DNA of 64,000 nucleotides, taken from the IMG/VR virus record IMGVR_UViG_3300032116_000145, positions 1 through 64,000 of that record; one strand, written 5' to 3'. The position numbers and the translations under genes were made by a program. A model generated the notes under the pieces. The model searched no databases. It had not been told where the DNA came from and was given only the letters and a program-made list of their open reading frames with translations. Positions within the stretch are counted from its first letter, which is position 1. Each line of letters starts with the position of its first letter. Source of the DNA: a virus. Below, piece after piece: positions 20,925 through 58,954 of the stretch.

Positions 20925-23900
20925 ATGGCAAAAATAATCTGCCCTACTAGGGAAAATAAAGACTTTTCAAACTTAAGCAATGCTCTTGGTAGTGATGCCT
21001 TAGCTAGATACGTATGGTATAAGAATGGCAACCTTCCTTTAAACTTAACTGAAGATGTTGAAGGTAATATTGTTTCTAGTGATATCTACGACAGAATCTT
21101 AAACGAAGTTGCAGATGGTAATGAAAGTCTTGCTTTAGGGATTACTGCTATCATGTACTACCCTAGCTTTCAAGAGAAGTACGCAGAAGAAGACCCTGCG
21201 TTTACTGTAGACTACATTAAGCAAGAAGCACAAGATAAAGCAGACAAAGCAACTAAGAGACAGGCACAACTTCTTGAAGAAAAAATTATTCCAGGTACTA
21301 AGACTCTTTACATTCAGTCTCCTGAAGGTGATGTTATCTACACCCAAGAAGAAGGAAAAGAAATTTTCGACAGTTTAGAATATCTTGCTTCTACTAAAAA
21401 GAGTTGGAAAGCAGTAGTTAATGCTTTAGCAGAAAGACTTACTGATATTCAAGCTAAGATTAAGAACAGTGCTGTAGATCCTGAGTCTAATGTTACTCCA
21501 CAAGAACTTGCTATTGGTAAGAATCTAGTTAATCTTCTTAAGAATTGGTCTCAAGTAAAAGCCTGGTATCTTAGTCAGGATACAAATTTTGGCTTAGAGT
21601 TACTTGAAGACGAAGTAAATCCAGAGACAGGAGGAAACATTTATAACAAGAATGCACATGACCGTAGTCAGATGGACTTAGCATCTGCTGAGGTTATTAA
21701 ATTAGTTCAGTCTCTTCCTAAGTACAATAAACTTACTACACAGAATCGTAAGGACGTAAAGGCAGGAAAGAAAAGCATTACTGATTTTCAAGTTATAAGT
21801 AACCTTACGGGTTTCCCTATTGTAGGAAACTTCTCTACTAACTGGAATGTACTTACCTCTAGTTTGTCTGGAATTACTAAGTATGACAAGATTCTTGAAG
21901 AGTTGGCAGTTGTTGCTCAAGAGTATCCTCAGTTTAGGAACTTGGTTAATATGCTTCCCAAAGAAGATGTACAAGATGTTGACTTAAACACAGCAAACTT
22001 TGTAGCTTCATTTGTACAAACAGTATCTCTCCCTGAGATTGCTGCTTACCAATTATCTATTGGAAAGAAGAATGACGGTAAAGAGACTAAGATTGTTACC
22101 AAGACTTTTCAATTAGGCACTAGAACAGTTGACAATCTTATCAAGTATTTTGATGAAGATTACTTTAGGTCTAATCCTAAGTACGGAATGCTTAACGATG
22201 AAGGAAAGACTGTACTTAATATCCCTAAAATACTAGAAGACTTTGCTAATATCAAAGACATTGGAAGATTCTTTGTAGAGAGGGGTGATATAAACTCTGC
22301 TGAAGGAAGACAGTTACTACAGAATATTCATAAGTTTTATATTGCACTTGGTATTATTCCTACTAATGCTCTTTATCAAAAAGATAAGAAAGCTCTTTAT
22401 GACTTTCTAAACAGTACCACTTATAGTGTAAGAGAGCTTTATGATAAGTTAGAAGCAAGTAAAGATAACAAAACAGTTACTCAGCCTCTTCAGTTCTTGT
22501 CTCGTCCCCAAGGGAGCGGGAAAGCATTAGGCCCTAAGTTTGACATCATCAACTCTATCGTGGGATACTACGGTAAGTTTGAGAGAGAGTTTGCTTCTGG
22601 TTCTTATTTCAACCCCGAAGACAAACTACAATACAATCGTGTACAATACTTCTACCTAACCCAAGTAACTAATGCACTTAACAACGTAGCAAGTTACAAC
22701 GAATTGATTGCTATGCCAGAGTTTGCTCATCTAGATGTAAGATTGAATCCTAACATATTAGGTTCTGTGTGGCTAGAGAGAATGTTTGGTTTAAGCATTA
22801 AGGGTAAGACACCTGCTCAATTGAAAAAAGATTTAGATGCAGGAAAACAATTTCCTAGACTTAAAACTAAATTTAGTAAAGAACCGTTTAAGATAAACAT
22901 TGTAAATTATTCAGGAGTAAGTATTGATGCTAATGTTAAAGAAGGTATAACTACTACAGAACTTACTTCAGAAGATAAAGTTGTACAAGACTTTTTATCT
23001 TTCTTTGGTTCTGGTATAGTTGAAAATATTCGTTTTGGTGACAAAGGAACTTCGTATGCTACAGTTACCTCAGGTAAAGTAGAAGAAAGAATTTACATTC
23101 CTCTTAACTCTGACGTACTTGGTATGATGGAGAAACCTACTTCTGTTATTGAACAATCTTTGGTAGATCAGTTTAATGCTTACCTTACTTCAGAAGTCTT
23201 TCGTGTACTTGCCGTAAACAAAGAAACTAAGAAAAATACTTACACTAAGAACGGTAGACAGTTATTCTTATTTAAAGATATTATTCCTAAAGAGGACTAC
23301 GATGCTTTAACTAGTGAGGATAGTAATGTAGTAAAAGAAGCTTACGCAAGAGTGTCTAGTAATCTTCCAACTTACTTAGGTCAATACTTTACTAAGCAGA
23401 CCCAAGAGTATAAGAAGCGTTTAATGGATTCTGTACTTGGAGACAACACTGCTATCAAGACGACCATTACCGAAGAACAAAGAGAAGAACAATTGGTAAA
23501 CTCTTTGTCTGCTTTGGGGTTTGTAGATCCTGCTTTATTTAAAAAGAACCAACTTACTAAGCAAAACTTAGACTACGTTATTGCAAACTACCTTAAGAAC
23601 GACTTTATCCATAAGGCAGAGTTCATGAAGGTGTTTGTAGGAGATATTTCTAACTTCCAAGTTAAAGGTGACTTCCGTGAGGTATTCAAACGTATTCCCC
23701 TTACTTCTTCTCCTGGCTTTATCTTTCAGGATAATCCAGTAGTGATGTCTCACCTAAACAATAGTAGTGCAACTAACGGATTACATAAAGCGCTTACAGG
23801 AGCTGCTCAGAAGTTTCGTAAGACTGTAAGAACTGTTATCTTTAATGATGTTAATACATTCAGTAAAGAAGATTGGCCTACCTATAGAAATGCTTTAGGT

Positions 23901-26900
23901 CTTCCTGACACCATGGAGTATCAAGAGTACGTAAACTCTCCTAAGGAAGCAGATGCACAAGGTTTAGTTAGTTTAGACTTTTATCGTAACTATCTTATTG
24001 GATTAGGACAGTGGTCTCAACAGCAAGAGAACGCTTACTTGAATGAGATCGAGATCTTTAAGATTCTTAATAAGACAGAGAAAACAGAAGAAGACTATGC
24101 CAAGATGCAAGAACTAAAGGCTAGCATGGACTACGTAGGTTTTCCTCCCTTGAAGTTAGGACACTATGGCCCTATTGTAGAGGATGTTAAACTTACTGCC
24201 TTACATAAGTATTCTTTGGCTCCTATGATTCCTTCTATGATTGCTGGTACTCAGCTAGAGGAATTGAATAAGCAAATGATTGCTAAGCAGATTGACTATG
24301 CAACATTTAACTCAGGATCTAAGGCTTCAAATTACGGAGACGCTTTGGACTTTTATGTACCAGATGCAGACAATGCAGGCACACTTAAAGTGAATCCTGA
24401 CATCAAGGGAAACAACGTTACTACTTTACACTTAACTAATCTTAAACAACAACAGTACATTGCTCCTAAGTTTAAGAATGAAGCTACTCTAGCTACTCAG
24501 ATGGTTAAGCTTATCTTTGGTGATTTTTTTGCTCAAGGGAATTTAGCTGATCTAAATGCTAGTACTGCTAAAAACATCTCTGATCTTTATAAAGACTACA
24601 CAGATGTATTAGGAAATATTATAGGAGCAGAAGAAGCAAACTTGTTTAACAAACTAGGTATTACTAAAGATGCTCAAGGTAACTTTGTAAACTTTGATAA
24701 CAAAAAGTTCTATAACTTTCTTAAGGGAGAGTTGGATAAAAGAGATACTAGTGCTTCACTTAAGCGTTATATTCAATTGGATGAAGCTGGTAACATCAAG
24801 TATCCACTTGACGCTACTAAAAACAGAGCAGAAATAGAAAACATCTTACTGTCTATTATTAATAACAAGATCATCTCTCAGAAGATTCACGGAGAGTCTT
24901 ATGTTCAGATGGCATCTACTGCTCAGGGTAACACAAGATTTACTAAACCTACTGAAGAACAGATTAAGAAGTACGGTATTAACGGACTAAGATTTTATCG
25001 TAAAGGTCCAGATGGTACAGAACCTGCAGATGTTAAAATTGCTTTCAATCCTAAAAAACATGCAGGTTTACTTAATCTTACATTCAGAGGCAAGAAGATT
25101 GGAACTATAGAAAACCTTAACAAGATTCTTAAATCTAGTAACCAAGAAGCTATTGATTGGGTTAACCAACATAGTAAGAAATTAAGTTTAGTAGGTGTAC
25201 GTATTCCCGTACAAGGTCTAAACTCTATGGAATACTTTAGAGTAAGAGAATTCTTACCTACTAGTGCAGGTCCTGTTATTGTTGTTCCTGCTCAGATTGT
25301 AGTTAAGTCTGGATCTGACTTTGACATTGATAAGTTGACAATGTTTGAACCCAAGTTAACTGCTAATGGAGATTTGGTTGATGACGGAGGATTTACTCTT
25401 AAAGACTATAACACTAATCTTCCTAGTCAAAAAGAGTCAATGAGAATGCTTAAGACTCTTACTGAGGTCAAACAAGCTTTGGTAGAAACCTTGGCAGCAA
25501 CTCCTGCTTACGTTAATAAGAAGCAACTAGAAAAAGAAATCCAAGAGTTGACTGAGTCTATCTCTACTACAGAGGAAGAGATTAGCAAGTTCTCTAATAA
25601 GAAGATGAGTTTGGAAGAACTTCAGGCTTTGATGTCAGAAGGATCTAATGACAAAGAAAACTTAATCAAACAGAAGATTGAAGAAGCAAAAGCTCTTGTT
25701 AGAACAGGTGATCTAGCAGCCTCACTTCCTGTGCTTAAGGCTCTTAAGTCAGAAATTAACGACTACGTAAGTACAGTTAACGGAGTACAAAACTTTAAGC
25801 AAGCTAATATCAACAAGTTGATAGATGTATTTAGTTCTGTTCTTTCTATGAAAGAGAACTATGATAAGCTTGTACTTCCTAACACAAACACAGTATTGAC
25901 AGAGATCTCAGACAAGCTACAAGCTAATCCTATCACTTCTACTGAGTTGTTTAGTCCTCTTACATCTAATCGTGTATACGGAGATAATATCGAGTCTAAG
26001 AAAGCCTTAGGTATTGATGCTAAGCTTAACACAATGCAGAAGGAGTTTCAGATTGCAGGATTAGTTTACACAAGTGAGTTTGCTAGTATGTATCCTTTCT
26101 CTGCAAACCGTGTAGAAAAAGGTATCAGCTTAGGTGAGAAGACTCTTACTGATGGTACTTCTATTTCTAGGGTAATCAGTGAAGCGATTAACGGGCACGT
26201 AGATATTGCAAAAGAAGATTGGATTATCTTGTTAGGATTAGATAAAGCTAAGACTCCATTGTTTCACTCTATGATTCTTGCAGGTACTCCTGTAAAAACT
26301 GCCTTAGACTTTTTAAATAAGCCAGTAGTTAAGCACGTACTTAAGGAGTCTACCAGAGGGCCCTTGTTTAAACAACTAGGAGTAACAAGAGGAAGACCAG
26401 TTAAGATGACTTTTAAAGAAGTTTTAATGGACACTTTAAAAAGTCTGAACATTTCTCAAGAGTCACTAAGCCTTGTTAACGATTCGATTGTTACTGATAA
26501 GAGTGGAATTATAAAGGTAAAACCTACTATAGAAGCGCTTAGTTTGTCTTTAAAGAATAACGACTTTGCAAATGAATCAGATGCTGCTCAAATACAAGAC
26601 ATTGTAGATTTATTTGTAGTTAAGGAAATGCAGGGTGCTATACAACAGTTGACTGGTTTGGTAGATTACAACACTAGAAGATTTCAAAACTCTTACCAAG
26701 TTAAAGCAGATAAAATTAGTGCAGCAAAAATTAGAGAGAGTTTTAATGCAGAGGGATTAGATAAACTGACTAATAAGTCTGCTCTTTCTAAGTTCAACCA
26801 AGCTAATACTATTGAGTCTTTGATGCCCCAGGTGTTTGATGTATCAAATCACCCTAGTGTGTTAGACGCTATTACAATCTATTCTAATAAGGCTGGACTG

Positions 26901-28019
26901 TTTACTGAAGAAGACTTGGTTAAAGCCTCTAGAAAGATTAAGGATAACTACCTTGTTACAATGGTACAGTTGTTTGGGGTAGATGGTACAGGAACTAAAC
27001 TTCAAGATAAGTTTTTCTCTAATGCAGGTCTTTTGAATAAAAATAACCCAGAGAATTTATCTAAGAGGATTGCGGACATCACTGAGAAGTACAGCGACTT
27101 ATCTAAGAATCAGATTTTGGCTAATCTTTACACAGCAGAGACAACTTCAAATAATATTATCTTTAGACTTAGAAACGCTAACCTAGATAGTTACCTAGTA
27201 GGTGAGTATGAGAAAGCATTTATTGAAGGTCTTAATGATGTTCGTGAAGATGTACGTAGTGTATTCGAGAATCTAGGATTAGGTACTTTTCTTGAATTTG
27301 GTTTTGCTAAGAACTCTTATGGTCTTTCTCAAGTAATTCCTTACGAGACTTATGTAACTCATACAACTCAAGCAGTTGCTAAACTTAAAGAAGGACTCAA
27401 CAATCCTACGTTTGCAGAATCTATGTCTAGGTATGTAGGCTTGATGACTTACTTTAACGATAGTAGAAATGTCCCTACTTTAGTTCTTAACTCGAGATTA
27501 GCTAAGGATAAACATCAAGCCGATTTCTTGATTACTTTAGGTAAATTAGAAGCTGAAGTAGAAGAAAGTTTGAGAAATATAGCTAACTTTAAAGGCAAGA
27601 CTTATAATAACTTTGACAACATTAAAGCAAAAGGTAAGTTTAGATCTTTGCCTATTCAGTTGGTAGATATTATCCCTACTAAGAAAACTACTCCTGTTGC
27701 TATGAGAAACTTAGAAGGTACTATTCTTATTAACGAGAAAGAATTTATTAAGAAGTTTAATGATAAGGCTTGGACTAAACCTGCTAAACAACTAGACGAT
27801 AGCTTTGCTACCCCTTTAGCTGCAGATGAATTCCAATCACTAGAAGAGTTCTTGACCTTTGCTTTGATACATGAAGCTAAACATAACACTATCAAACAAG
27901 AAGAAGGTGAAACTAAGGGACAATACGAAGACAGAATTAATCAAGCTGCTCTACAAGACCTACGCTACAACTACGGTAAGGGAGAATCAAGCAGTGTAAT
28001 AGATCCATTTAAATGTTAA
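20925..28019 (+). CDS. crAss-like virion RNA polymerase (2364 aa)
   Basis: DFDID at residues 1465-1469, preceded by VVKSGS and followed by KLTMFEP, matches the catalytic Mg-binding aspartate loop of the single-chain crAss-like virion RNA polymerase. That enzyme is related to double-psi-barrel polymerases such as QDE-1 and was characterised in Cellulophaga phage phi14:2. The preceding ~60 residues (GVRIPVQGLNSMEYFRVREF, LPTSAGPVIVVPAQI) look like its barrel strands. Length fits a ~2200-residue enzyme. A charged helix insertion follows at ~1510-1600. Near the C-terminus (2316-2320) is HEAKH, an HExxH zinc-protease-type motif. In phi14:2 the enzyme is packaged and transcribes early genes after entry; the same role is inferred here. 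Confidence 0.85.
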   Translation: MAKIICPTRENKDFSNLSNALGSDALARYVWYKNGNLPLNLTEDVEGNIVSSDIYDRILNEVADGNESLALGITAIMYYPSFQEKYAEEDPAFTVDYIKQEAQDKADKATKRQAQLLEEKIIPGTKTLYIQSPEGDVIYTQEEGKEIFDSLEYLASTKKSWKAVVNALAERLTDIQAKIKNSAVDPESNVTPQELAIGKNLVNLLKNWSQVKAWYLSQDTNFGLELLEDEVNPETGGNIYNKNAHDRSQMDLASAEVIKLVQSLPKYNKLTTQNRKDVKAGKKSITDFQVISNLTGFPIVGNFSTNWNVLTSSLSGITKYDKILEELAVVAQEYPQFRNLVNMLPKEDVQDVDLNTANFVASFVQTVSLPEIAAYQLSIGKKNDGKETKIVTKTFQLGTRTVDNLIKYFDEDYFRSNPKYGMLNDEGKTVLNIPKILEDFANIKDIGRFFVERGDINSAEGRQLLQNIHKFYIALGIIPTNALYQKDKKALYDFLNSTTYSVRELYDKLEASKDNKTVTQPLQFLSRPQGSGKALGPKFDIINSIVGYYGKFEREFASGSYFNPEDKLQYNRVQYFYLTQVTNALNNVASYNELIAMPEFAHLDVRLNPNILGSVWLERMFGLSIKGKTPAQLKKDLDAGKQFPRLKTKFSKEPFKINIVNYSGVSIDANVKEGITTTELTSEDKVVQDFLSFFGSGIVENIRFGDKGTSYATVTSGKVEERIYIPLNSDVLGMMEKPTSVIEQSLVDQFNAYLTSEVFRVLAVNKETKKNTYTKNGRQLFLFKDIIPKEDYDALTSEDSNVVKEAYARVSSNLPTYLGQYFTKQTQEYKKRLMDSVLGDNTAIKTTITEEQREEQLVNSLSALGFVDPALFKKNQLTKQNLDYVIANYLKNDFIHKAEFMKVFVGDISNFQVKGDFREVFKRIPLTSSPGFIFQDNPVVMSHLNNSSATNGLHKALTGAAQKFRKTVRTVIFNDVNTFSKEDWPTYRNALGLPDTMEYQEYVNSPKEADAQGLVSLDFYRNYLIGLGQWSQQQENAYLNEIEIFKILNKTEKTEEDYAKMQELKASMDYVGFPPLKLGHYGPIVEDVKLTALHKYSLAPMIPSMIAGTQLEELNKQMIAKQIDYATFNSGSKASNYGDALDFYVPDADNAGTLKVNPDIKGNNVTTLHLTNLKQQQYIAPKFKNEATLATQMVKLIFGDFFAQGNLADLNASTAKNISDLYKDYTDVLGNIIGAEEANLFNKLGITKDAQGNFVNFDNKKFYNFLKGELDKRDTSASLKRYIQLDEAGNIKYPLDATKNRAEIENILLSIINNKIISQKIHGESYVQMASTAQGNTRFTKPTEEQIKKYGINGLRFYRKGPDGTEPADVKIAFNPKKHAGLLNLTFRGKKIGTIENLNKILKSSNQEAIDWVNQHSKKLSLVGVRIPVQGLNSMEYFRVREFLPTSAGPVIVVPAQIVVKSGSDFDIDKLTMFEPKLTANGDLVDDGGFTLKDYNTNLPSQKESMRMLKTLTEVKQALVETLAATPAYVNKKQLEKEIQELTESISTTEEEISKFSNKKMSLEELQALMSEGSNDKENLIKQKIEEAKALVRTGDLAASLPVLKALKSEINDYVSTVNGVQNFKQANINKLIDVFSSVLSMKENYDKLVLPNTNTVLTEISDKLQANPITSTELFSPLTSNRVYGDNIESKKALGIDAKLNTMQKEFQIAGLVYTSEFASMYPFSANRVEKGISLGEKTLTDGTSISRVISEAINGHVDIAKEDWIILLGLDKAKTPLFHSMILAGTPVKTALDFLNKPVVKHVLKESTRGPLFKQLGVTRGRPVKMTFKEVLMDTLKSLNISQESLSLVNDSIVTDKSGIIKVKPTIEALSLSLKNNDFANESDAAQIQDIVDLFVVKEMQGAIQQLTGLVDYNTRRFQNSYQVKADKISAAKIRESFNAEGLDKLTNKSALSKFNQANTIESLMPQVFDVSNHPSVLDAITIYSNKAGLFTEEDLVKASRKIKDNYLVTMVQLFGVDGTGTKLQDKFFSNAGLLNKNNPENLSKRIADITEKYSDLSKNQILANLYTAETTSNNIIFRLRNANLDSYLVGEYEKAFIEGLNDVREDVRSVFENLGLGTFLEFGFAKNSYGLSQVIPYETYVTHTTQAVAKLKEGLNNPTFAESMSRYVGLMTYFNDSRNVPTLVLNSRLAKDKHQADFLITLGKLEAEVEESLRNIANFKGKTYNNFDNIKAKGKFRSLPIQLVDIIPTKKTTPVAMRNLEGTILINEKEFIKKFNDKAWTKPAKQLDDSFATPLAADEFQSLEEFLTFALIHEAKHNTIKQEEGETKGQYEDRINQAALQDLRYNYGKGESSSVIDPFKC

Positions 28020-34619: not shown

Positions 34620-34649
34620 TTGACTTATTTTTTTAATAGTTTACTTTTG
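34620..34649 (+). promoter_or_regulatory. Bacteroidetes-type promoter for the tail-fibre operon
   Basis: TTG (34620-34622, in CTTGAC) and TACTTTTG (34642-34649, TAnnTTTG) are 19 nt apart with a T-rich spacer. This is the same architecture as at 339 and 45566. Predicted transcription start is near 34655. Confidence 0.75.
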
Positions 34650-34719: not shown

Positions 34720-35040
34720 ATGGAAAATAATGATTTGCTTAAAGAGCAAGCTAAACGTCTAAGACAAATCGCTTCTAACACAGAGGAGCCTGCTGACGTA
34801 TCTAGAACCCTTACCCTAACAGGTTCGCTTACAGATTTGCCAGCAGAGTGTTGCAAATTCGTAACACTTATGAATACCACAGGATCAAACTTAAGTTTTA
34901 CAGTAAATAATGCTACTTCAGGTGTATCTGGAGCAACTATCTTGTTGCCTACTAGTGCAGGAATTAGCATAGATACTTCTAATACTTCCAATGTAAAAGT
35001 AGCTGGTACAGGTACTCTTTATTACATTGTATCTCAATAA
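34720..35040 (+). CDS. small fibre-adaptor-like protein
   Basis: 106 residues: a helical N-terminus (ENNDLLKEQAKRLRQIASNT) followed by Thr/Ser/Gly-rich beta sequence (SGATILLPTSAGISIDTS) ending in a Tyr-rich strand (GTLYYIVSQ). This looks like a short coiled-coil stalk plus a small beta barrel, a style seen in phage fibre adaptors or head decorations. It is the first gene of the fibre operon, 31 nt after the predicted hairpins. No specific family is recognised. Confidence 0.5.
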   Translation: MENNDLLKEQAKRLRQIASNTEEPADVSRTLTLTGSLTDLPAECCKFVTLMNTTGSNLSFTVNNATSGVSGATILLPTSAGISIDTSNTSNVKVAGTGTLYYIVSQ

Positions 35041-35096: not shown

Positions 35097-36947
35097 ATGG
35101 CTCGCTTAGGGAAATTTTTCTATATTAACGGAACAGACAATCTATCTAATGCTCACTTTCTAAGAGTAAGAGCAGATGGAGGAATTACAGAATCTCTAGG
35201 ATGCATAGATACTGCAGGTACTTTACTTGAGTCTGCATCTTATTTTATGAGACCAAGTGGATACAAAGAGGACACAGTATACTCGCTTATCCCTAACAAC
35301 TCTAATGGATCTCTTAGCTTTACTAGAGCAAGTGATGCTTGGAGAACAGACATAGAAGGGTTGATTCAACGAGTTCCGTGGAATTTGTTATCATATTCGG
35401 AGCAGTTTACCAATTCTGCTTGGTCGAAGTCAAGCGCAACAATTACCGCAGACACTACGATTTCACCAAATGGTACTTTAACGGCTGATACAATTGCTTT
35501 TAGTACGGCTGGGTTTGTTGTGCAATCCTTTACGCATAATGGCTTAATGACGTTTTCGTTATATGCTAAATATATTGCAACACGTTGGGTGTGTGTAGAG
35601 AATTTTAATTCAGTCGACAAGGCTGCGTGGTTTGATTTACAAAATGGCGTGGTTGGTTCAACCATAAATGGAGCAACAAGCACTATCACAAATGTAGGAG
35701 ATGGGTGGTATCGTTGCACAGTCACAATGACTGCGGTTAATAGTTCTGCCAGTCAATACGCTTTTTTTACAGTTAGTGCGGATTCAAGTTTTACAAGAAG
35801 CGGAAGCGCATATTTTTGGGGCGCACAATTAGTCGAAGGCAGTTCAGCCCAAACCTATTTTCCCACAACCGATAGGTTGAATGTACCCCGTCTATCCTAT
35901 ATGTACGGCAGTTGTCCTGCGTTGTTGTTAGAGCCACAGAGGACGAATTTGGCGTTTCCAAGCGAAGATTTTTCAACTACTTGGTTAACAAATAACACAA
36001 CCGTAACTACAAATCAAACAACCGCACCCGATGGCAATACGACTGCCGATAGAATATCAATTACAAGTAATGGAGGATTTATTCGTAGGTTTAGTTTGAC
36101 CGTATTAAATTCAACGACATACACTATTTCTGCGTTTGTAAAAAATGATACTATTACTTCGGGTAACACTTTTAGATTTTATTTTAACAATAATTTAGGT
36201 TCAACAAACGCAGCGGAAGCAAGGGCGGTAATTGATATAAATGCGGGAACTGCTACGGCACAATCAACGGGTTCTGGTGTTAGTAACGTAAGTGCATCAA
36301 TAACGAGTTTAACAAATAGTTGGTATCGTGTGCAGGTTACATTCACTCTTGGGGCAACCTCAGGGAATAATAGTGCTGAAATTGGATTTGATGCACCAAC
36401 TGCAACTCGCACATTTTTTGCGTGGGGCGCACAACTCGAACTTGGCGCATACCCCACAACCTACATCCCAACAACCACCGCATCAGCCACCCGTATTGCG
36501 GATTCGTTCAGCCGCAATAACATATACACCAATGGTTTGATAACAAGCAGTGGGGGTACTTGGTTTGTGGAGTTGAGGAATAACATTGCGTATACGAGGG
36601 ACAATTCTAATATTAATATTAATCTTGATGATTCAAGTGGATTCAGTAATGGATTTGCGTTGCGCAATTCCTTGGGTACTGGAAGATTGGCAATACAAAA
36701 AACTATTTCTTCCTCTTCAACATTATTGTACACAACCACAACGGACACTGTAAAAATTGCCATCAAATGGAACGGCAGTACTGCAGATGTATTTGTTAAC
36801 GGAACAAAGCAAGTTAGTGCGACCGCATTTAGCACAACGCAGTTACAAAATTTACTAACAAGTATGCAAGTCCCCGTATTCATCCAACAAATGGCACTCT
36901 TTAACTACCCATTAAGCGATAGTGATTGTCAGTTACTAACCACATAA
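35097..36947 (+). CDS. receptor-binding fibre paralogue 1 (carbohydrate-binding-like modules)
   Basis: 616 residues. The N-terminal ~90 residues are a phage-specific attachment part. Then come two tandem ~185-residue jelly-roll modules of the phage-fibre CBM4_9-like type (start NLLSYSEQF, ~96; end LLLEPQRTNL, ~278; repeat ending WGAQLELGAYPTTYIPTT). The C-terminal ~150 residues are a concanavalin/LamG-like domain (KIAIKWNGSTADVFVNG). DNA composition shifts at ~35361: before it Arg is mostly AGA; after it CGT, GCG, ACC and CCC codons become common. The modules thus look recently acquired. A 27-nt block is identical to the gene at 39131. Likely role: binding surface polysaccharide. Confidence 0.65.
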   Translation: MARLGKFFYINGTDNLSNAHFLRVRADGGITESLGCIDTAGTLLESASYFMRPSGYKEDTVYSLIPNNSNGSLSFTRASDAWRTDIEGLIQRVPWNLLSYSEQFTNSAWSKSSATITADTTISPNGTLTADTIAFSTAGFVVQSFTHNGLMTFSLYAKYIATRWVCVENFNSVDKAAWFDLQNGVVGSTINGATSTITNVGDGWYRCTVTMTAVNSSASQYAFFTVSADSSFTRSGSAYFWGAQLVEGSSAQTYFPTTDRLNVPRLSYMYGSCPALLLEPQRTNLAFPSEDFSTTWLTNNTTVTTNQTTAPDGNTTADRISITSNGGFIRRFSLTVLNSTTYTISAFVKNDTITSGNTFRFYFNNNLGSTNAAEARAVIDINAGTATAQSTGSGVSNVSASITSLTNSWYRVQVTFTLGATSGNNSAEIGFDAPTATRTFFAWGAQLELGAYPTTYIPTTTASATRIADSFSRNNIYTNGLITSSGGTWFVELRNNIAYTRDNSNININLDDSSGFSNGFALRNSLGTGRLAIQKTISSSSTLLYTTTTDTVKIAIKWNGSTADVFVNGTKQVSATAFSTTQLQNLLTSMQVPVFIQQMALFNYPLSDSDCQLLTT

Positions 36948-36999
36948 ACATTAAATAAACTTAAATAAAATTAAATAACTTTTAAATAAAAATACGACT

Positions 37000-39111
37000 A
37001 TGTCATACGGTAAAATATTTCCCTTAGGTGCTAGTGGAGGAATTGTAAACACTGGTGTTCTACAACTTCAAGGAGGAGTACCCTTAGATTCTATCCTAAG
37101 AATCATTACAGACCAAGTAAACACTGCTACTCCATTAAGGGTGTCTACTACATCAGTTACTAACTATGGAGGAGGAGCTGTACTTACTAATACTGCTTTT
37201 GGTACAGACTCTTTGCTAAGCAATACTTCTGGGGCTAGTAATGTCGCTTATGGTTATAGATCACTAAGAGCTAATACAAGCGGAACACAAAACGTGGCTG
37301 TTGGGGTTGATGCGTTGTTGAGTAATACAACTGCGAGTAATAACGTGGCTGTAGGGTATCAGGCAGCAAATAGCAATATTATAGGAACAGGCATCACAGC
37401 GATAGGGTATCAAGCACTTACCGCAAGTACAGGAGATAGAAACACAGCGATAGGTTTTCAGGCGTTAGTAGGTAATACTACAGGCGTTGGTAACACTTAC
37501 GTAGGATGGTCTTCTGGAACTGCTAATACTATAGGATCAAATAACGTAGCACTTGGTCAAAATTCTTTACGTCAGAATATTTCGGGCGGCTCAAATGTTA
37601 GTATCGGTTTTGCCTCTTTATTCAACAATACCGCCTCTAACAACACAGCCTTAGGTTTTGAAGCCGCTTTAACCAACACAAGTGGAACGGGTATTACTGC
37701 TATAGGTTATCAAGCGTTGAGGGTTTCAACGGGTAATAATAATACTGCTGTAGGTGATAGGGTTTTAACATCGAATACTACAGGTCAATTAAATACCGCC
37801 ATTGGACAAGTTTCTGCATTTACAAATACTACAGGGGGTTCAAATACAGCCATAGGTGCTTATGCAAACTATGCAAACTCTACAGGGGCATCAAATACTG
37901 CGGTAGGCGTTAATAGTTTAGTAAATAACGTAGCCTCCAACAACACAGCGGTAGGCTTTGATGCAGCACGTACAAACACCTCAGGCACAGACATTACGGC
38001 AATCGGTTATCAAGCGTTATATTCGAGTACGGGTAACTCAAATACCGCAGTTGGTCATACTGCACTTTACACAAATAATACAGGTAGTGAAAACGTTGCT
38101 TTGGGTAGACGTGCTTCTTTTTTCAATACTATAGGAAACTCAAACACCGCCATTGGTAACAACGCTTTGGATGCCAACACTACAGGTTCAAACAATACTG
38201 CTATAGGGCGTTTGGCTTTGACTACAAATTCAACAGGTGCTTCTAATACTGCCATAGGTCGTTCTGCATTAAATTTAAACACAGCATCCAACAACACAGC
38301 GGTAGGTGTTGATTCCGCTGCCGCCAACACCTCGGGTACAGGCATAACCGCAATCGGGTATCAGGCACTTACTGCGAGTACGGGTGTGAATAACACGGCG
38401 TTAGGGTTTCAGGCTGGTGCTGGTGTAACTACGGGTACGAATAATACTTTATTAGGTTATGTTGCAGGAAGTGCTATAACTACAGGCGTGTTAAATGTTA
38501 TGATTGGTTCTGGTATTACTACGGCTTCTGGTTCATCAAATAGCGTAGGTATTGGTTCGGACATTACAAATACAGGAGGTAGTAATACCGTTATTGGATA
38601 TATTGCAAGTACAGCAGGGTTTAGCAATTCAGTAATTTTAGGTCGTGCAGCAACTGCAACGGCAAATAATCAATTTGTAGTAGGTAGTGTTACCCATAAC
38701 GCAGGTGCAGTAGCAGCTGAGACTAATACTACTATTTCTTCTTGGGCTGTTAAAATTAACGGAACAGATAGAAAGCTTCTTTTGTTAGATACTGCACAGA
38801 ACGTAATAGATGTTAAGCAAACTATCTCAGCGTCTACTGCTAGTACTACTGTTAGTTGGCCTAATGGTAACTTAGCGGATATTACGCTTACAGCTAACAC
38901 TACCTTGACTTTAAGTACTCCAGTAATAGGAACTTACATTGTAAAGTTAACTCAAGGAGGAGGAGGCGGATTCTTAACTGCATGGCCTGCAAACGTAAAA
39001 TGGTCAGGAGGAGTTGCTCCAGTACTCACCACTACTGCAGGTAAGATAGATATCATTACTTTAGTATGGGATGGATCTTTCTACTACGCTTCTTACGCTC
39101 TTAATTTCTAA
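37000..39111 (+). CDS. fibre with YadA-head-like repeats (703 aa)
   Basis: After ~60 phage-style residues, residues ~60-565 consist of some 35 short repeats of the form SNNTAVGxxAL / GITAIGYQAL. This is the left-handed beta-roll style of YadA-type trimeric adhesin heads, so a trimeric beta-roll fibre is expected. The last ~130 residues are a different beta domain with a GGGGG loop (KLTQGGGGGFLTAWP). Codon use changes with the domains: ends are AGA/TTA-rich, the repeats carry many GCG, CGT and GGG. It lies between CBM-type fibre paralogues in one operon. Similar repeats occur in the minus-strand fibre at 48196. Confidence 0.65.
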   Translation: MSYGKIFPLGASGGIVNTGVLQLQGGVPLDSILRIITDQVNTATPLRVSTTSVTNYGGGAVLTNTAFGTDSLLSNTSGASNVAYGYRSLRANTSGTQNVAVGVDALLSNTTASNNVAVGYQAANSNIIGTGITAIGYQALTASTGDRNTAIGFQALVGNTTGVGNTYVGWSSGTANTIGSNNVALGQNSLRQNISGGSNVSIGFASLFNNTASNNTALGFEAALTNTSGTGITAIGYQALRVSTGNNNTAVGDRVLTSNTTGQLNTAIGQVSAFTNTTGGSNTAIGAYANYANSTGASNTAVGVNSLVNNVASNNTAVGFDAARTNTSGTDITAIGYQALYSSTGNSNTAVGHTALYTNNTGSENVALGRRASFFNTIGNSNTAIGNNALDANTTGSNNTAIGRLALTTNSTGASNTAIGRSALNLNTASNNTAVGVDSAAANTSGTGITAIGYQALTASTGVNNTALGFQAGAGVTTGTNNTLLGYVAGSAITTGVLNVMIGSGITTASGSSNSVGIGSDITNTGGSNTVIGYIASTAGFSNSVILGRAATATANNQFVVGSVTHNAGAVAAETNTTISSWAVKINGTDRKLLLLDTAQNVIDVKQTISASTASTTVSWPNGNLADITLTANTTLTLSTPVIGTYIVKLTQGGGGGFLTAWPANVKWSGGVAPVLTTTAGKIDIITLVWDGSFYYASYALNF
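37180..38690 (+). repeat. degenerate coding repeats of the beta-roll fibre
   Basis: Nucleotide-level degenerate repeats of roughly 42-48 nt encode NTAxGxxAL units. Longer super-repeats recur (the SNNTAVGFDAARTNTSGTD-type block near 37310, 37630, 37930 and 38290), each followed by ITAIGYQAL. Such repeats can expand or contract by slippage or recombination and so change fibre length. Confidence 0.6.
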
Positions 39112-39130
39112 TTTTTAATCGAATCAATTT

Positions 39131-41080
39131 ATGTTTAACGGACCAGTATTTAATAACGAAGTAGTACAAGCAAACTCTAGAGCAGTTAATAATGCAGGGT
39201 TTTCAGAGTCACTAGATGAAGCAAACTCCCTATATTCTCGCTTAACAGGTGCTTCTTTTGAATTAGTTCCTTCTTCTTACAAAGGAGGAGTTGTATACTC
39301 AGGTGTACCTAATACTGGTAACGGAGACATAACTTGGACAAGAGGATCAGATGCTTGGCGTACTAACTCTAACGGATTGATTCAACGAGTTCCGTGGAAT
39401 TTGGTTGGTTATTCGGAAGATTTTTCTAATTTATATTGGAGTAAAACAAATGTAACCGTAACTGCTGATAACACTACTGCTCCCAATGGGACAAATACAG
39501 CAGATTTAATATCATTTACAACATCTACAGGATATATAATAAAAACTTTGCCAATAGCCGCATCAACACAATATACCTTTAGTGTTTATCTTAAAAACAA
39601 TACATTTGCAAGTGGGGAAACACTTTTCTTAAGAGTGTCTGACGGTGTGATTGCTCCTGCAATAGCACGAATAAACTTGGTTGCTAAGACTGCTACATAC
39701 TTTACAAATCCATTGGCTTGGACAAATATAAGTGGTCAAATTGAGCAATTACCAAATGATTGGATTCGTGTTTCTGTAACTGCTACATCATTAGGTGGTG
39801 GTAACGGGTGGATTGAGTTAGCTGGAGATGGATTTGCAAAAAGTTGTTTTGCTTGGGGCATTCAGTTAGTTACTGGTAGTTCAGCACTCCCATACTTTCC
39901 TACAACTGATCGTCTTAATGTACCAAGACTGTCATATATGTATGGAAGTGCACCTGCTTTACTTTTAGAACCACAGAGGACTAATTTAGACCCTAATTCT
40001 CAAACATTTACTGGTTGGACATTAACTAATAGTGGAGGTACAACAGTAACTACTGTAAGTGCATCAAATCCCTATGGATTTTCTACAGTTGCAAAAATAA
40101 TACCTGACGCAACACTTGGACAACATCGACCTTTTTTAAGTGTAAACTATTCGGGTGCGGGTAGATTTTGGGTAATTGCAAAATCTGCGGGATATGATTA
40201 TTTATCACTTGGTGAAGCGGGTGGTGTTTCGGGTGGTGCAATTATTTTCAACTTGTCGAATGGTACAATTTCGGGAACTGCCGTTGGTTACACGGGTGAA
40301 ATTTCTTCATTAGGAAATGGGTGGTACAAATGTTCCATTAATATGACCTTTACGGGAGCTTTGTCTCGTTTTATTGTTGTAAGAAATGCAAATTCAACCG
40401 CTGATTATACAGGCGATGGAACAAGTGGCGTTTTAATTGCTCACAAGCAATGCGAAGTTGGTGCTTATGATACGACTTCAATTATTAGTTCTGGGGCTAC
40501 AGTAACTCGCTTAGCAGACTCTTTCACTAGAGGTAATATTTATACTAACGGATTAATAACAGCAGCAGGAGGAACATGGTTTATTGAATTAAGGAATAAC
40601 ATCAGTTATACAAGGGACTCTATTGGTGCTTTGTGGATAGGTGATAACTCAACTGCAGCATCATTAGGAAATTCATTAAATATAAGAAGTTCAGGAACAG
40701 GAATTTTACCAATCAACAAATGTGTTGGAGGTACCTTAACTCAACTACATGTAACCACTACAAGCACAGTTAAGATTGCTATAAAATGGAATGGCACCAC
40801 GGCTGATGTATTTGTTAATGGAGTAAAAGTGACTAGTGCTACACCTTTTACTACTACAAATATGGAATTTTTGAATGGACAAGGTAGTGATGTACCTAAA
40901 TTTGTTCAACAGATGGTTTTATTCCCTACACCATTATCAGACGATCAGTGTGTTGCGCTTACCTCTGACTTTACAGAAGGAGAATCAGTAATAGGAAGCT
41001 ATGAAAGATATGTAAACAGTAACGGAGGAGCAGTAGAGAACTTAAATACAATAACCAACTTAATACAAAACTTAAAGTAA
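39131..41080 (+). CDS. receptor-binding fibre paralogue 2 (carbohydrate-binding-like modules)
   Basis: 649 residues: a ~90-residue attachment region, two tandem CBM-like jelly-roll modules (NLVGYSEDF ~92; LLLEPQRTNL ~280; second ending near 455) and a concanavalin-like C-terminal domain (KIAIKWNGTTADVFVNG, ~555). It ends in a ~45-residue helical tail (YERYVNSNGGAVENLNTITN) missing from paralogue 1. The second module (~40120-40490) has more GCG/GGG codons than its flanks, which suggests exchange of single modules. Last in line is a 9-nt gap to the next paralogue. Confidence 0.65.
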   Translation: MFNGPVFNNEVVQANSRAVNNAGFSESLDEANSLYSRLTGASFELVPSSYKGGVVYSGVPNTGNGDITWTRGSDAWRTNSNGLIQRVPWNLVGYSEDFSNLYWSKTNVTVTADNTTAPNGTNTADLISFTTSTGYIIKTLPIAASTQYTFSVYLKNNTFASGETLFLRVSDGVIAPAIARINLVAKTATYFTNPLAWTNISGQIEQLPNDWIRVSVTATSLGGGNGWIELAGDGFAKSCFAWGIQLVTGSSALPYFPTTDRLNVPRLSYMYGSAPALLLEPQRTNLDPNSQTFTGWTLTNSGGTTVTTVSASNPYGFSTVAKIIPDATLGQHRPFLSVNYSGAGRFWVIAKSAGYDYLSLGEAGGVSGGAIIFNLSNGTISGTAVGYTGEISSLGNGWYKCSINMTFTGALSRFIVVRNANSTADYTGDGTSGVLIAHKQCEVGAYDTTSIISSGATVTRLADSFTRGNIYTNGLITAAGGTWFIELRNNISYTRDSIGALWIGDNSTAASLGNSLNIRSSGTGILPINKCVGGTLTQLHVTTTSTVKIAIKWNGTTADVFVNGVKVTSATPFTTTNMEFLNGQGSDVPKFVQQMVLFPTPLSDDQCVALTSDFTEGESVIGSYERYVNSNGGAVENLNTITNLIQNLK

Positions 41081-41091
41081 ACTAAGCGAAC

Positions 41092-42918
41092 ATGAGCAAA
41101 TTTTCTGATTCAACATTCTACCTAGCTCCTTCAGGATATAGAGAGACTATATTATTTCCACAAAAACCCTTATCTTCTATAGGTCAACTCTCTGTTACAA
41201 GGGCATCTAGTGCTACTCGTACTAATCCAGCAGGACAAGTAGAGGAAGTTTGCTATAACTTGATTAGGTATAGTGAGGATTTTTCAAATAGTTTATGGGT
41301 AAAAATTGCAGCAAGTGTAACAACAGATTCAATCATCTCGCCTAATGGTACTTTAACTTCTGACAAATTAATTGCAACTGCTGTAAATACAGGTCACCTT
41401 ATATACCAAACATATTCAGCCCAAACTCAAACATATACTTTTAGTACATATGCTAAAAAGGGCGAATACGATTATATGATAATGAGGCTTGATAACGACA
41501 TTTCAACAGTAAGAGTTTGGTTTAATTTATCCAATGGGACTATTGGAACATCACAAGGAGGCTTTCCAACAATCACAAATATCGGAAACGGATGGTACAG
41601 GTGTACTATGACTTATTCATCCGCAAGTGTTCAAAATATATTTGCGGTATTGTATACTGCAAATGCAGACAATGTTCAAAATTTTTTAGGAGATGGCACA
41701 AGCGGAATTTTTGTTTGGGGAGCACAACTAGTACAAGGTAACTTACCTAAAGATTATCTTTACACAAGTGACCGCTTAAACTTTCCTAGAGTAGATTACT
41801 CTGATGGATCTGCTTCTTTCTTATTAGAGCCACAAAGAACTAATTTGTTATTGCAGTCAAATACATTTAACACAACTTGGGCAATGTTTGCAGGTCCTGC
41901 GGTGAATGCAAATTCTGCAATATCTCCTGATGGAACTAATAATGCTTGGACATTAAACTCAAGTGGTGGAGGTAATGACTTTTTGTTTCAAAACATTACA
42001 GTAAATATTGGAACTACATATACAACAACACTATATATAAAAAATATAAATTCAAATCAGAGTAGAATTTGGACATCCGATGGAGCAGGCCTTACGGTAG
42101 ACTTGTATTGGAATGGTTCAATTCTCACATCTATTCTAGGTACAAGCGGTACTTATAGTTTTACATCAGTTGGAAATGGTTGGTATAGAATTGTTGGTGT
42201 CTTTACCTCTACACAATCAACTTATATTTTTCGTATTTATTCAGACGCTTTAAACACATCTAAAAGCGTTTACATATATGGAGCACAAGTTGAAACTGGG
42301 GCTTATCCAACAACATATATCCCTACGACTACCACAACTGTTACTCGCTTAGCTGATACCTTTACAAGAAACAACATCTTTACTAATAACCTTATTAGTT
42401 CTAGTGGAGGTACGTGGTTTGTTGACTTGAAGGCAAACTTAAGTGTATTTAGAGATGCATTCAGTAATGGTTTGCAATTAGCCGACAACAATACATCGGG
42501 TGGAATTAGTGGTAACGGTTTTATTATGCGCAGAAATGATTTAAGTCAAGGTAGATTAAATATTCAAAAAGTAATTGCAGGAAATCCTACGGCACTGTTT
42601 CAGACTACAACCGATACTGTTAAGGCTGTCATTAAGTGGAACGGAACAACTGCGGATGTGTTTATTAACGGTATAAAACAGGTTTCAGCAACCTCATTTA
42701 CTACAACAAACATGGAATTTCTTCTGGGTTATGCAACTGATGTTCCTAAATACATCACACAAATGGCTTTATGGAATACTCCCTTATCTGATTCTCAATG
42801 TATAGAACTTACAGGAGTTGCTTACACTACACCTACTCAAGCCTATGGAAGTCTTAACCTAGTATCAGAGAGTCCTGATTGTCTTTACACATCTGTTAAT
42901 ACTATTAATAGAATTTAA
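41092..42918 (+). CDS. receptor-binding fibre paralogue 3 (carbohydrate-binding-like modules)
   Basis: 608 residues with the same plan: a short attachment segment (SDSTFYLAPSGYRETILFP), module 1 from NLIRYSEDF (~55) to LLEPQRTNLL (~245), module 2 ending WGAQ-type VETGAYPTTYIPTT (~400), then a concanavalin-like domain (KAVIKWNGTTADVFING) and a short tail. Its composition is AT-rich throughout, so it seems older or better adapted to the genome than paralogue 1. The shorter N-terminal region suggests it may attach to another fibre rather than directly to the particle. Confidence 0.65.
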   Translation: MSKFSDSTFYLAPSGYRETILFPQKPLSSIGQLSVTRASSATRTNPAGQVEEVCYNLIRYSEDFSNSLWVKIAASVTTDSIISPNGTLTSDKLIATAVNTGHLIYQTYSAQTQTYTFSTYAKKGEYDYMIMRLDNDISTVRVWFNLSNGTIGTSQGGFPTITNIGNGWYRCTMTYSSASVQNIFAVLYTANADNVQNFLGDGTSGIFVWGAQLVQGNLPKDYLYTSDRLNFPRVDYSDGSASFLLEPQRTNLLLQSNTFNTTWAMFAGPAVNANSAISPDGTNNAWTLNSSGGGNDFLFQNITVNIGTTYTTTLYIKNINSNQSRIWTSDGAGLTVDLYWNGSILTSILGTSGTYSFTSVGNGWYRIVGVFTSTQSTYIFRIYSDALNTSKSVYIYGAQVETGAYPTTYIPTTTTTVTRLADTFTRNNIFTNNLISSSGGTWFVDLKANLSVFRDAFSNGLQLADNNTSGGISGNGFIMRRNDLSQGRLNIQKVIAGNPTALFQTTTDTVKAVIKWNGTTADVFINGIKQVSATSFTTTNMEFLLGYATDVPKYITQMALWNTPLSDSQCIELTGVAYTTPTQAYGSLNLVSESPDCLYTSVNTINRI

Positions 42919-45179: not shown

Positions 45180-45500
45180 ATGAATAATATGAATTGGAAA
45201 ATTAAAAACATGATGGCTAAGCCTCACGAAGGTTTAGAGAACGTAGTAACTAGTGTACTATTCGAAGTGAGTAAGACCTCAGGAGAATTTACCTCTGAGT
45301 ATAGTTCTTCTTGTATTCTTACATTGGGCGATTCTTTTACTCCTTTTGCTGATTTGACAGAAGATCAAGTTATTAGCTGGGTAAAAGCTGGCTTAGGCGA
45401 AGATATGATTAAGTCTATTGAGAACTCTTTAGATGGTCAATTGGAGTCTTTGAATAATCCTCCAGTAAGTCCAGAGATCGTAGAGCTTCCTTGGTCTTAA
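45180..45500 (+). CDS. small hypothetical acidic protein
   Basis: 106 residues, start 11 nt after the previous gene. Beta-rich first half (ENVVTSVLFEVSKTSGEFTS) and a helical, acidic end (VISWVKAGLGEDMIKSIENS). This style, including a 'TPFADLTEDQVISWVKAGLG'-type helix, is common in small proteins beside phage tail genes, sometimes as fibre-tip or baseplate accessories. Function unknown. It precedes the inverted repeat and lysis promoter. Confidence 0.5.
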   Translation: MNNMNWKIKNMMAKPHEGLENVVTSVLFEVSKTSGEFTSEYSSSCILTLGDSFTPFADLTEDQVISWVKAGLGEDMIKSIENSLDGQLESLNNPPVSPEIVELPWS

Positions 45501-45526
45501 TTTCTTAAACTTTAATCTATTTATAT

Positions 45527-45615
45527 TCAGGTAGTTAGGAAGCGTCTAGTAAAAAGCTAAGTTTCTTGACTAATTTTTTAATAAAGTTATCTTTGTATAA
45601 GTCCTAACTACCTGA
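45527..45615. repeat. 14-bp perfect inverted repeat flanking the lysis promoter
   Basis: TCAGGTAGTTAGGA (45527-45540) is repeated in perfect inverse as TCCTAACTACCTGA (45602-45615), with 61 nt between. The spacer contains the whole TTG/TATCTTTG promoter. The right arm begins at the predicted transcription start. This could be a pair of operator half-sites, an invertible-promoter boundary, or a long stem in read-through RNA. Confidence 0.8.
45566..45595 (+). promoter_or_regulatory. Bacteroidetes-type promoter for the lysis module
   Basis: TTG (45566-45568, in CTTGAC) and TATCTTTG (45588-45595) are 19 nt apart with a T/A-rich spacer almost identical in style to that at 34620. Predicted start near 45601, 28 nt before the holin ATG. 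Confidence 0.75.
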
Positions 45616-45628
45616 CTATCTCCAACTA

Positions 45629-46043: not shown

Positions 46044-46358
46044 GTGAAGACTTTTCAAACCTACCTAAACATTATTTTACTCGGAGTAATCGCTTATTTA
46101 CTTTTTAAAGATTACTCAGAAAAACAAGAGACCAATCAGGTCCTTAGCTTTATAGACTCTATAGATAAAGCAAACGATACTTACTTCGAAAAAATAGACT
46201 CTCTGGAACATATCAAACACGAAGAGTATAGAACTTACGAAAAAATCAACTTAAAGTATGATACCATTCAGATTGCTATTGACACTATGCCTGATATTGA
46301 CGGCACAAAATACCTACTCACAATCTCTAGACAGCTTACCGCTAAAGGAGTTGAATAA
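46044..46358 (+). CDS. i-spanin-like (Rz-type) protein, GTG start
   Basis: 104 residues from a GTG start 4 nt after the holin stop. One N-terminal membrane segment (residues ~7-20, LNIILLGVIAYLLF) is followed by a soluble Glu/Lys/Asp-rich helix, the topology of Rz-type inner-membrane spanins. The next gene starts inside it in another frame, as Rz1 does within Rz. Sequence families of spanins are too varied for a firm match, so the call rests on topology and context. Confidence 0.5.
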   Translation: MKTFQTYLNIILLGVIAYLLFKDYSEKQETNQVLSFIDSIDKANDTYFEKIDSLEHIKHEEYRTYEKINLKYDTIQIAIDTMPDIDGTKYLLTISRQLTAKGVE

Positions 46359-46617
46359 CGAGTTCCTTAAAGGAATTCAAGCACGTGAAAGAGTAGTAAG
46401 TCTTAAAAAAATAATTAAGACAGATAGTACACAGTTAGTTTACTATAAGGATTCTTTGATTCCTAACTATCAAAAAGCATTAGATACAGCTAAAATAGAG
46501 ATAGTTCGCCTAGATACTAAGGTAAGATCTCAAGCAGAAACCATAAAAACATTGAAGAATGTTTTGAAAGGTGGATTAATTGCTATAGCTTTGTTAACCA
46601 TAGGGTTAATACTTTAA
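46258..46617 (+). CDS. spanin-like second component, overlapping in a different frame
   Basis: 119 residues; the first 101 nt overlap the previous gene in another frame. It has an N-terminal signal-like segment (FRLLLTLCLILTA, then TYSQS, a Bacteroidetes-like cleavage site), a coiled-coil-like middle and a C-terminal membrane segment (GGLIAIALLTIGLIL). The single Cys at residue 11 is not in a good lipobox (preceded by T-L). Two membrane anchors at opposite ends recall a unimolecular spanin, though without the lipoprotein signal. It may join the envelope membranes during lysis. Confidence 0.45.
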   Translation: MIPFRLLLTLCLILTAQNTYSQSLDSLPLKELNNEFLKGIQARERVVSLKKIIKTDSTQLVYYKDSLIPNYQKALDTAKIEIVRLDTKVRSQAETIKTLKNVLKGGLIAIALLTIGLIL

Positions 46618-56980: not shown

Positions 56981-58954
56981 TTACTTCTTCCAATACCTTG
57001 CATGGGCAGGTTCTGCGCCTAATCTAACTCTTTTACAAAACTTAGCAGCAGATTTTTCCATAGCTTGCTGAATAGCATTTGAGCATTGTTCTACAATTGA
57101 CTCAGGACACTCTATTAGGTACTCGTCATGGATTATATTTACTATCTTAACTGTGTTAAACAGATTCTTGGGAATTAAATAGTCTTTCCAGAAGTAAATA
57201 CCTGCAAGTTTGCTTATCTCAGCGCTCTCTCCCTGTACTCGATAATTCAACGACATTCTCTCAATGTCTCCTTTCTTGCGGAAATACCTGGATACTTTGT
57301 CTTTCATTGTTCTTGCCGTAGGAGTATCACTGTTCTTAATCTGTTTGTACTTTTCCCAGAACTCTTTACTCTTTAGTTCTTGTTCTATCCCTTTAAACTC
57401 TTCAAAGTAGTCTACATAACACTTCTTACCAGTAACAGGCGACAATAACACATACCCTTTCTCAACCCCAAACTTCTTTGCTTCGGTGTAATACCTGTCT
57501 AAGTCTGGAAATGCCAAGAAATATTTCTTGTATATGTCTTCTCCTTCTTCTGGAGATAGGTTAAGTTGATCTGATATAGCTTTTGCTGAACCTCCATAGG
57601 CTAAAGCAAAACCAATAACTTTACTTTGCTGTCTTTTGTCTTTGTGCTTTGACTTAATCTCATCTAAAGATAATCCGTTTAATTCTTTAAACATCTTACT
57701 TGCGATAAAGCTGTGCATGTCAGAAAGACCCTTATCATAAAACTCTAACAAAGATGGGTCTAAACATTGGTTAGCTAAAACCACAGATTCTTGTGCTGTG
57801 TAATCGCAACTTATCAAGAGATTACCATCTTCAGCTACAAAGCAACTACGAGTCTCTTGGTCTGACGGAATGTTTTGAAAGTTAAAGTTCTTTACGTTAC
57901 CAGATTTACCCCCACTAGATAAGCGTCCTGTGTTCATCAACTGCTTAAACTGTGTGTGGATTCTTCCGCTTACTGGATTGATTTGTTCTATCCAGTTGTA
58001 ACCATAAGTTCCTATGTCTTTCTGTGCTTCTTTAAAAGAGAGGTAAGTATTAATAATTGGGTACTTAGAAGCAAACTTACCTAAGTGACTTGCTTCTATC
58101 GTTTGTTTCTTGACTCCTTTTTCTACTACAGTTGTATTTACTCCTATAGCTTCAAAGAATTCTACAACCTGTGAGGGTGAGTTCCAGTTTACATTAATTT
58201 TATTACCTGAAGAGAACATGTCTAGTTGATGGTCTATAAACTTAGTCATGTTGTTCTCTAAGATAAACTTATTAAGTGATTCTACTGCCTCATCAGCTTG
58301 TATTTGTACTTTTTCAATCTTCTTCGTCCATTGTTCTACGTCTAGTTTCATACCGCAGTATTCGATATACGCTAGAACTAGAACAAAGCGATTGTCCAGT
58401 TCCATAGACACATCAGTGCCTTCTGTTAACTGTCCAAAGTTTTGCTTACTTTTAATTTCGTGTAGGTATTTTACGTCATAGGCAGAATACTTAACAAACC
58501 CTTCGGTTAGTCTACCTGTAATATTTGCTCGTTCTTCCTTACTAAGTGTTACTCCGCAATGACGTTGTACACAAGCAGCTAAAGAACATCTATGACTTTC
58601 TATACCCAAACGAGCTGTTTTCTCGCCTAAGAACGTATCATATACCCTAGTGGGTACAATTCTCTGATGATACAAGAATCTTAAGTCAAACTTAAAGTTA
58701 TGACCTATTAGTTCTTTAGTTTCTAATAAATTCTTATACTCTTGGATGTCTATCGTAGACAAGTCAATAACATACTGAACTTCTTGGTCTCCTAACTGCA
58801 AGGTATAAAACTTGCAAGTATATGGATCAAATCCAGAAGTCTCAGTATCGACACCAATAGAATCAAACTTATTTAAGTAATCTAAAGAATCTTGTACAGA
58901 GCAGAGAGTTACATCAGGTAGGGAGATATCTTGTTTTGTTACTAGATAAATCAC
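56981..58954 (-). CDS. family A DNA polymerase with 3'-5' exonuclease
   Basis: 657 residues from a GTG start. Exonuclease motifs: DTE (D36, E38), NFKFD (N85-D90) and YSAYD (Y156-D160). Polymerase motifs: A, DYTAQE (D384); B, RQQSKVIGFALAYGG (K445, Y453, G454); C, HDE (609-611). Length and lack of a 5'-nuclease domain fit T7-like replicative phage polymerases. Residue Tyr453 at the O-helix position is noteworthy (Phe would discriminate against dideoxynucleotides). Crassvirales use either family A or B polymerases; this one is family A. It starts 6 nt after the NinG-like gene. Confidence 0.92.
   Translation of the reverse strand: MIYLVTKQDISLPDVTLCSVQDSLDYLNKFDSIGVDTETSGFDPYTCKFYTLQLGDQEVQYVIDLSTIDIQEYKNLLETKELIGHNFKFDLRFLYHQRIVPTRVYDTFLGEKTARLGIESHRCSLAACVQRHCGVTLSKEERANITGRLTEGFVKYSAYDVKYLHEIKSKQNFGQLTEGTDVSMELDNRFVLVLAYIEYCGMKLDVEQWTKKIEKVQIQADEAVESLNKFILENNMTKFIDHQLDMFSSGNKINVNWNSPSQVVEFFEAIGVNTTVVEKGVKKQTIEASHLGKFASKYPIINTYLSFKEAQKDIGTYGYNWIEQINPVSGRIHTQFKQLMNTGRLSSGGKSGNVKNFNFQNIPSDQETRSCFVAEDGNLLISCDYTAQESVVLANQCLDPSLLEFYDKGLSDMHSFIASKMFKELNGLSLDEIKSKHKDKRQQSKVIGFALAYGGSAKAISDQLNLSPEEGEDIYKKYFLAFPDLDRYYTEAKKFGVEKGYVLLSPVTGKKCYVDYFEEFKGIEQELKSKEFWEKYKQIKNSDTPTARTMKDKVSRYFRKKGDIERMSLNYRVQGESAEISKLAGIYFWKDYLIPKNLFNTVKIVNIIHDEYLIECPESIVEQCSNAIQQAMEKSAAKFCKRVRLGAEPAHARYWKK

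Follow-up and report, generated by a model that had tools for sequence, protein, structure and literature searches.

Known promoter-containing hairpins and invertible promoters

The lysozyme gene e of phage T4 has a leader hairpin with internal late promoters, and soc, 49 and I-TevI are organized likewise (PMC3014915, PMC2988022). The logic of this read-through hairpin with an internal promoter has been proven for gene e (PMC3014915): the lysis-gene mRNA that arises by read-through folds into a stem hiding the start, and the mRNA of the enclosed promoter, which is devoid of the 5' strand of the stem, is translated. Inverted repeats around a promoter are also well described in another context, that of the invertible promoters of Bacteroides, where repeats down to 10 bp lie about 183 bp apart and transcription starts inside the proximal repeat (PMC8375218). 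Delayed and gradual release has been reported for crAss-like phages, and the timing of their lysis is poorly known (PMC8375218).

In the stretch of viral DNA analysed here (the window, 64 kb), an inverted repeat encloses the promoter of a holin gene. We consider it likely that this repeat encodes a regulatory RNA hairpin, which would block translation in the manner of T4 gene e and make the holin dependent on its own promoter. As in T4, the read-through mRNA of a lysis gene is predicted to fold into a stem that hides the start, and the mRNA from the enclosed promoter, without the 5' strand, to be translated. The likeness is one of mechanistic class and the arrangement seen here, which serves a holin, is apparently a separate invention. 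There are several differences. The gene is a holin and not an endolysin; the promoter is of the host sigma-A type, whereas T4 uses phage late promoters; the whole promoter lies in a 61–65-nt loop between contiguous stem arms; the likely hosts lack Shine-Dalgarno pairing; and the upstream genes are structural, which makes a late or middle read-through RNA more probable than an early one. The predicted inability of the promoter's transcripts to form the start-hiding structure is also shared with the hairpins of Aeh1 mobE, T4 segB and I-TevII/III, although these have late promoters and control homing endonucleases in T4-like phages (PMC2988022). A search of the open-access literature returned no description of this kind of hairpin from crAss-like phages.

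We thus have a concrete candidate control element for a crAss-like holin, together with a testable prediction. We are inclined to think that a crAss-like lineage evolved this promoter-in-hairpin block of the holin independently of T4, and that lysis is timed by one host-type promoter, in hosts without Shine-Dalgarno pairing. If so, the hiding of a lysis gene in a read-through hairpin with a promoter in its loop would have arisen more than once, and such a block would work where ribosomes ignore Shine-Dalgarno sequences, which means that structure alone must block.

Anatomy of the repeat and of the enclosed promoter

The left copy of the repeat, TCAGGTAGTTAGGA, occupies positions 45527–45540 and its exact reverse complement positions 45602–45615, with a spacing of 61 nt. 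If one mismatch is allowed, the repeat reaches 18 bp (17/18; 45523–45540 and 45602–45619). TTGAC (45566) and TATCTTTG (45588–45595) sit between the arms and make up a good Bacteroidetes sigma-A promoter; the consensus described for Bacteroidetes promoters is TANNTTTG (PMC6847099, PMC9723704). The features of the locus are listed in Table 1. A sequence-only reading of this DNA had described a perfect 14-bp repeat around the holin promoter, with the right arm at the predicted transcription start. Both descriptions hold: the predicted start, a position inferred from promoter spacing, falls 1–2 nt before the right arm. With the left arm ending at 45540 and the start predicted at 45600–45601, the promoter appears to be placed in such a way that its transcript would lack the 5' strand of the stem.

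Table 1. Coordinates of the holin hairpin and of its flanking genes, in window numbering.
Feature	Position	Strand	Basis or remark
Upstream gene (DUF7936), last before the hairpin	45180–45500	+	ORF and family match
Left arm, 5' strand of the hairpin	45523–45540	+	Untranslated gap, 22 nt past the stop of the upstream gene; pairs in 6/6 homologous sequences
Promoter TTGAC-N17-TATCTTTG, Bacteroidetes sigma-A type, in the hairpin loop	45566–45595	+	Motif and literature consensus
Predicted transcription start	45600–45601	+	4–5 nt past the -7 element, spacing from PMC6847099
Right arm, 3' strand of the hairpin	45602–45619	+	Ends 9 nt before the holin start codon
Holin gene, 136 aa	45629–46039	+	Phage_holin_4_1; PHROG lysis/holin

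Within the window, this is the sole exact inverted repeat of at least 14 bp with a loop of at most 150 nt. Markov-model sequences contained a mean of 0.07 such repeats, only 3 of the 60 simulated sequences having any, and none of 1500 random promoter-sized stretches lay inside a 14-bp Watson-Crick helix. The arm sequence occurs exactly twice across the whole 69.5-kb record. Contiguous helices were used in place of gapped RNAduplex energies, which were too noisy (site versus background 5%). The record contains 13 matches to TTG-N17-21-TAnnTTTG, and a helix stronger than -13 kcal/mol is found at the holin promoter only. The holin promoter is again alone in this respect in a 90-kb relative, and one additional, weaker match is present in a 79-kb relative. 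For crAss001 (first 50 kb) and immuto (49 kb), the same kind of scan gave no promoter inside a helix. Given this rarity in the window and in the simulations, as well as the restriction of the helix to one lineage among 83 holin upstream regions (see below), the inverted repeat is not a product of chance.

No Rfam family reached its gathering score within the window. A search of 84,980 genomes of bacteria and archaea did not recover the promoter, and no plasmid match was obtained either. An intrinsic terminator was considered and ruled out by the 61-nt loop and by the lack of a U run 3' of the right arm. A promoter closely resembling that of the holin, TTGACTTATTTTTTTAATAGTTTACTTTTG, is also observed at 34620–34649, before a small gene at 34720, with no hairpin there.

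Expected read-through transcription and predicted access to the holin start

The genes before the holin share its strand and are separated by short gaps. Since no terminator-like site was found between the upstream gene and the holin, read-through mRNA is expected. Such transcripts, coming from the tail and structural genes, would carry both arms and fold, and the left arm is expected in this kind of mRNA only. This arm is separated by some 20 nt or more from the upstream stop codon and should therefore escape melting by ribosomes that translate the upstream gene. In the folded read-through mRNA, the region where holin translation begins would be inaccessible, and little holin would be made. 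Transcripts begun at the enclosed promoter would start at the right arm, which is predicted to be present in both kinds of mRNA and to have no partner in this one; they would remain open and be translated. Holin synthesis, and hence lysis timing, would then be set by the holin's own promoter and not by transcription of the long structural operon. A host-type promoter in this position agrees with the proposal that crAss001 relies on the host polymerase for its middle and late genes (PMC8375218).

The two kinds of transcript differ in silico. In all six distinct sequences available, opening the region from -20 to +13 is computed to cost 9–19 kcal/mol when the RNA is a read-through transcript (8.5 with the lowest setting) and 2.2–7.5 kcal/mol when it is promoter-born, and the folding z-scores of the hairpins range from -2.5 to -5.8. 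In the window, the mean unpaired probability over -20 to -1 differs modestly (0.51 versus 0.56), whereas the difference in opening energy is clear. The predicted stem has 14–18 bp and ends 8–18 nt before the start codon, with outer helices coming closer. In the window and in the relative L002, the 18-bp stem ends at -10; a further helix, laying the region of the upstream stop codon over the start codon, would be possible there, and may be due to chance. The main stem of L039 and L041 ends 18 nt before the start codon, and the block would thus have to lean on a weaker outer helix. A start-hiding block is plausible, since initiation in Flavobacterium does not use Shine-Dalgarno sequences and is tuned by structure between -20 and +20 (PMC6847099).

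Conservation of the stem and its distribution among related holins

The layout recurs in five other distinct sequences obtained by scanning IMG/VR: L002, L038, L039, L041 and L086. The L001/L083 contig is identical to the window at this locus, which brings the total to seven contigs beyond the window's own record, eight in all. In the alignment of the six distinct sequences, 98.9% of the cells of the 15-bp core stem are paired, and the single break in core pairing is one mismatch, in the window itself. Two-sided changes are seen in two pairs (UA to CG and GC to AU), and one-sided changes via G-U in four. When the observed number of substitutions was placed at random, starting from L002, all 15 pairs were kept with a probability of 0.0007–0.05, depending on the transition bias. 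The stem thus appears to be kept through compensatory change, as judged from few sequences that form essentially two groups.

The arms are better conserved than the loop, and their changes are paired. A comparison of the window and L038 groups gives near-random identity for the rest of the loop (6–7/23 positions), against 27/30 for the promoter and 11/15 and 10–12/15 for the arms. A second helix, near the start codon, also co-varies: it reads AGAUUA/UAAUCU in L038, L039 and L041, where it stops some 4 nt short of the start codon, and AUGUUA/UAACAU in L086, where it covers the AU of the start codon.

A broader comparison involved 83 distinct upstream regions of related holins, 14 with a promoter and 69 without. 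A long helix (-21.8 to -28.5 kcal/mol) is present in six of them, each time with the promoter in its loop, and the best helix among the other 77 reaches -10.9 kcal/mol. No such stem is seen in the 69 promoterless regions, where the holin comes straight after another gene, as the model requires, read-through being there the sole source of holin. The eight other promoter-bearing regions have no hairpin, which is therefore not essential to this holin family. All six hairpins belong to one lineage, with the two-sided changes separating essentially two groups, so the link between hairpin and promoter counts as one evolutionary event. Hairpins with other arm sequences were not found across the wider holin family searched, and immuto, among the nearest named phages with this holin, has neither promoter nor hairpin at this place. 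Another type of holin promoter, TTGATTTAAATTTAAAATAAACTATTTTTGTAAACATA-YY-GTGAAAAC, is observed 40 nt before a GTG start (L035, L091, L094, L138, L143, L240). Its leader is only about 5 nt long, and the promoter is nearly invariant while the preceding sequence differs each time.

Alternative explanations

Three other functions may be considered for the repeat. The stem could be an RNase III processing site or a 3'-end stabilizer of the upstream structural mRNA, with a secondary effect on the holin. An intergenic stem of 14–18 bp in a polycistronic mRNA would indeed suit a double-strand-specific nuclease, and changes that keep pairing fit this function equally well. It nevertheless leaves unexplained both the placement of the promoter in the loop and the additional co-varying helix that reaches the start codon; moreover, the 69 promoterless relatives show no such stem, with the reservation that all the hairpins come from one lineage. 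We consider this explanation unlikely.

The arms could also serve as half-sites or operators through which a repressor or activator governs the holin promoter, by looping or by blocking the start site directly. Their position on both sides of the promoter, with the right arm abutting the predicted start, and their better conservation relative to the loop are in line with such a role. The arm changes, however, maintain pairing and not one binding sequence, and the G-U changes break the symmetry of the DNA. Between the two groups, the outer span of the 15-bp core passes from 93 to 99 bp, and this 6-bp difference, about half a helical turn, argues against phased looping. A third copy of the arm is absent from the genome record. 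Repressor half-sites, one of the options raised by the sequence-only reading, are thus quite unlikely.

The leading idea of that reading was an invertible lysis switch, in which a site-specific recombinase would flip the 61-nt segment between the arms and so switch the holin on or off at the level of transcription, in a fraction of the population. The analogy with Bacteroides was reasonable, since the repeats are short there too and the start lies in the proximal copy (PMC8375218). In the Mpi-type capsule promoters, inverted repeats likewise flank a TAnnTTTG promoter, with the start at or in the proximal repeat (PMC8375218), and the arms of the window are perfect for 14 bp. The present segment is nevertheless much shorter, and its arm sequence differs between close relatives and is unlike the Bacteroides repeat quoted in PMC8375218. 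No tyrosine (PF00589) or serine (PF00239) recombinase was detected in the record or in those of six relatives, positive controls being run; these records are fragmentary, and the host could supply the enzyme. The promoter has the same orientation in 8/8 contigs, assemblies showing the majority state only. The arms of L038, L039 and L041, read as DNA, are identical for 10 bp and then differ at 4/5 positions, all four of which form G-U pairs in RNA. A recombinase would not preserve such pairing and a repressor would have no need of it, whereas an RNA stem has a reason to keep it. G-U pairing and the lack of recombinase genes in the records thus favour an RNA element over an invertible DNA switch, and the arms seem to evolve as an RNA stem. 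This had been the third option of the sequence-only reading, and it is the part of its interpretation that the evidence favours, along with its correct placement of the right arm at the predicted start. Inversion is very unlikely, with some formal room for a rare, host-driven event, given that the records are fragments and the assemblies reflect the majority orientation.

A chance coincidence or functionless leftover is most improbable: a few simulated sequences of this size did contain 14-bp inverted repeats, but the present one is kept, with paired changes, in six distinct sequences, while identity in their flanks and loop has dropped to a near-random level.

Phage identity and neighbouring genes

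The crAss-like affiliation, already proposed in the sequence-only reading, is supported by the DNA polymerase, 35–38% identical to that of crAss001 and other crAss-like phages, and by a giant ORF. The latter (20925–28019) encodes a 2364-aa protein that matches the catalytic RNA polymerase subunit of Cellulophaga phage phi14:2 and of crAss-like relatives, as well as 29 Flavobacterium phage records. The best match of the DNA polymerase (56981–58954) in named phages is found in the cyanobacterial Leptolyngbya phage Lbo-JY46 (47%), and a LAGLIDADG endonuclease gene lies under this match.

Two overlapping small conserved genes are located 3' of the holin. The first (46044–46358) encodes an N-terminal membrane segment, and the second (46258–46617) a signal-like N-terminus and a C-terminal membrane segment; although devoid of any family match, they look like a putative spanin pair. 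Further upstream, the 35097–42918 region encodes tandem proteins of about 600 aa, three of which (35097, 39131 and 41092) match the tail family phrog_5939. A fourth protein, at 42944, is similar, which suggests that these are duplicated tail fibre genes.
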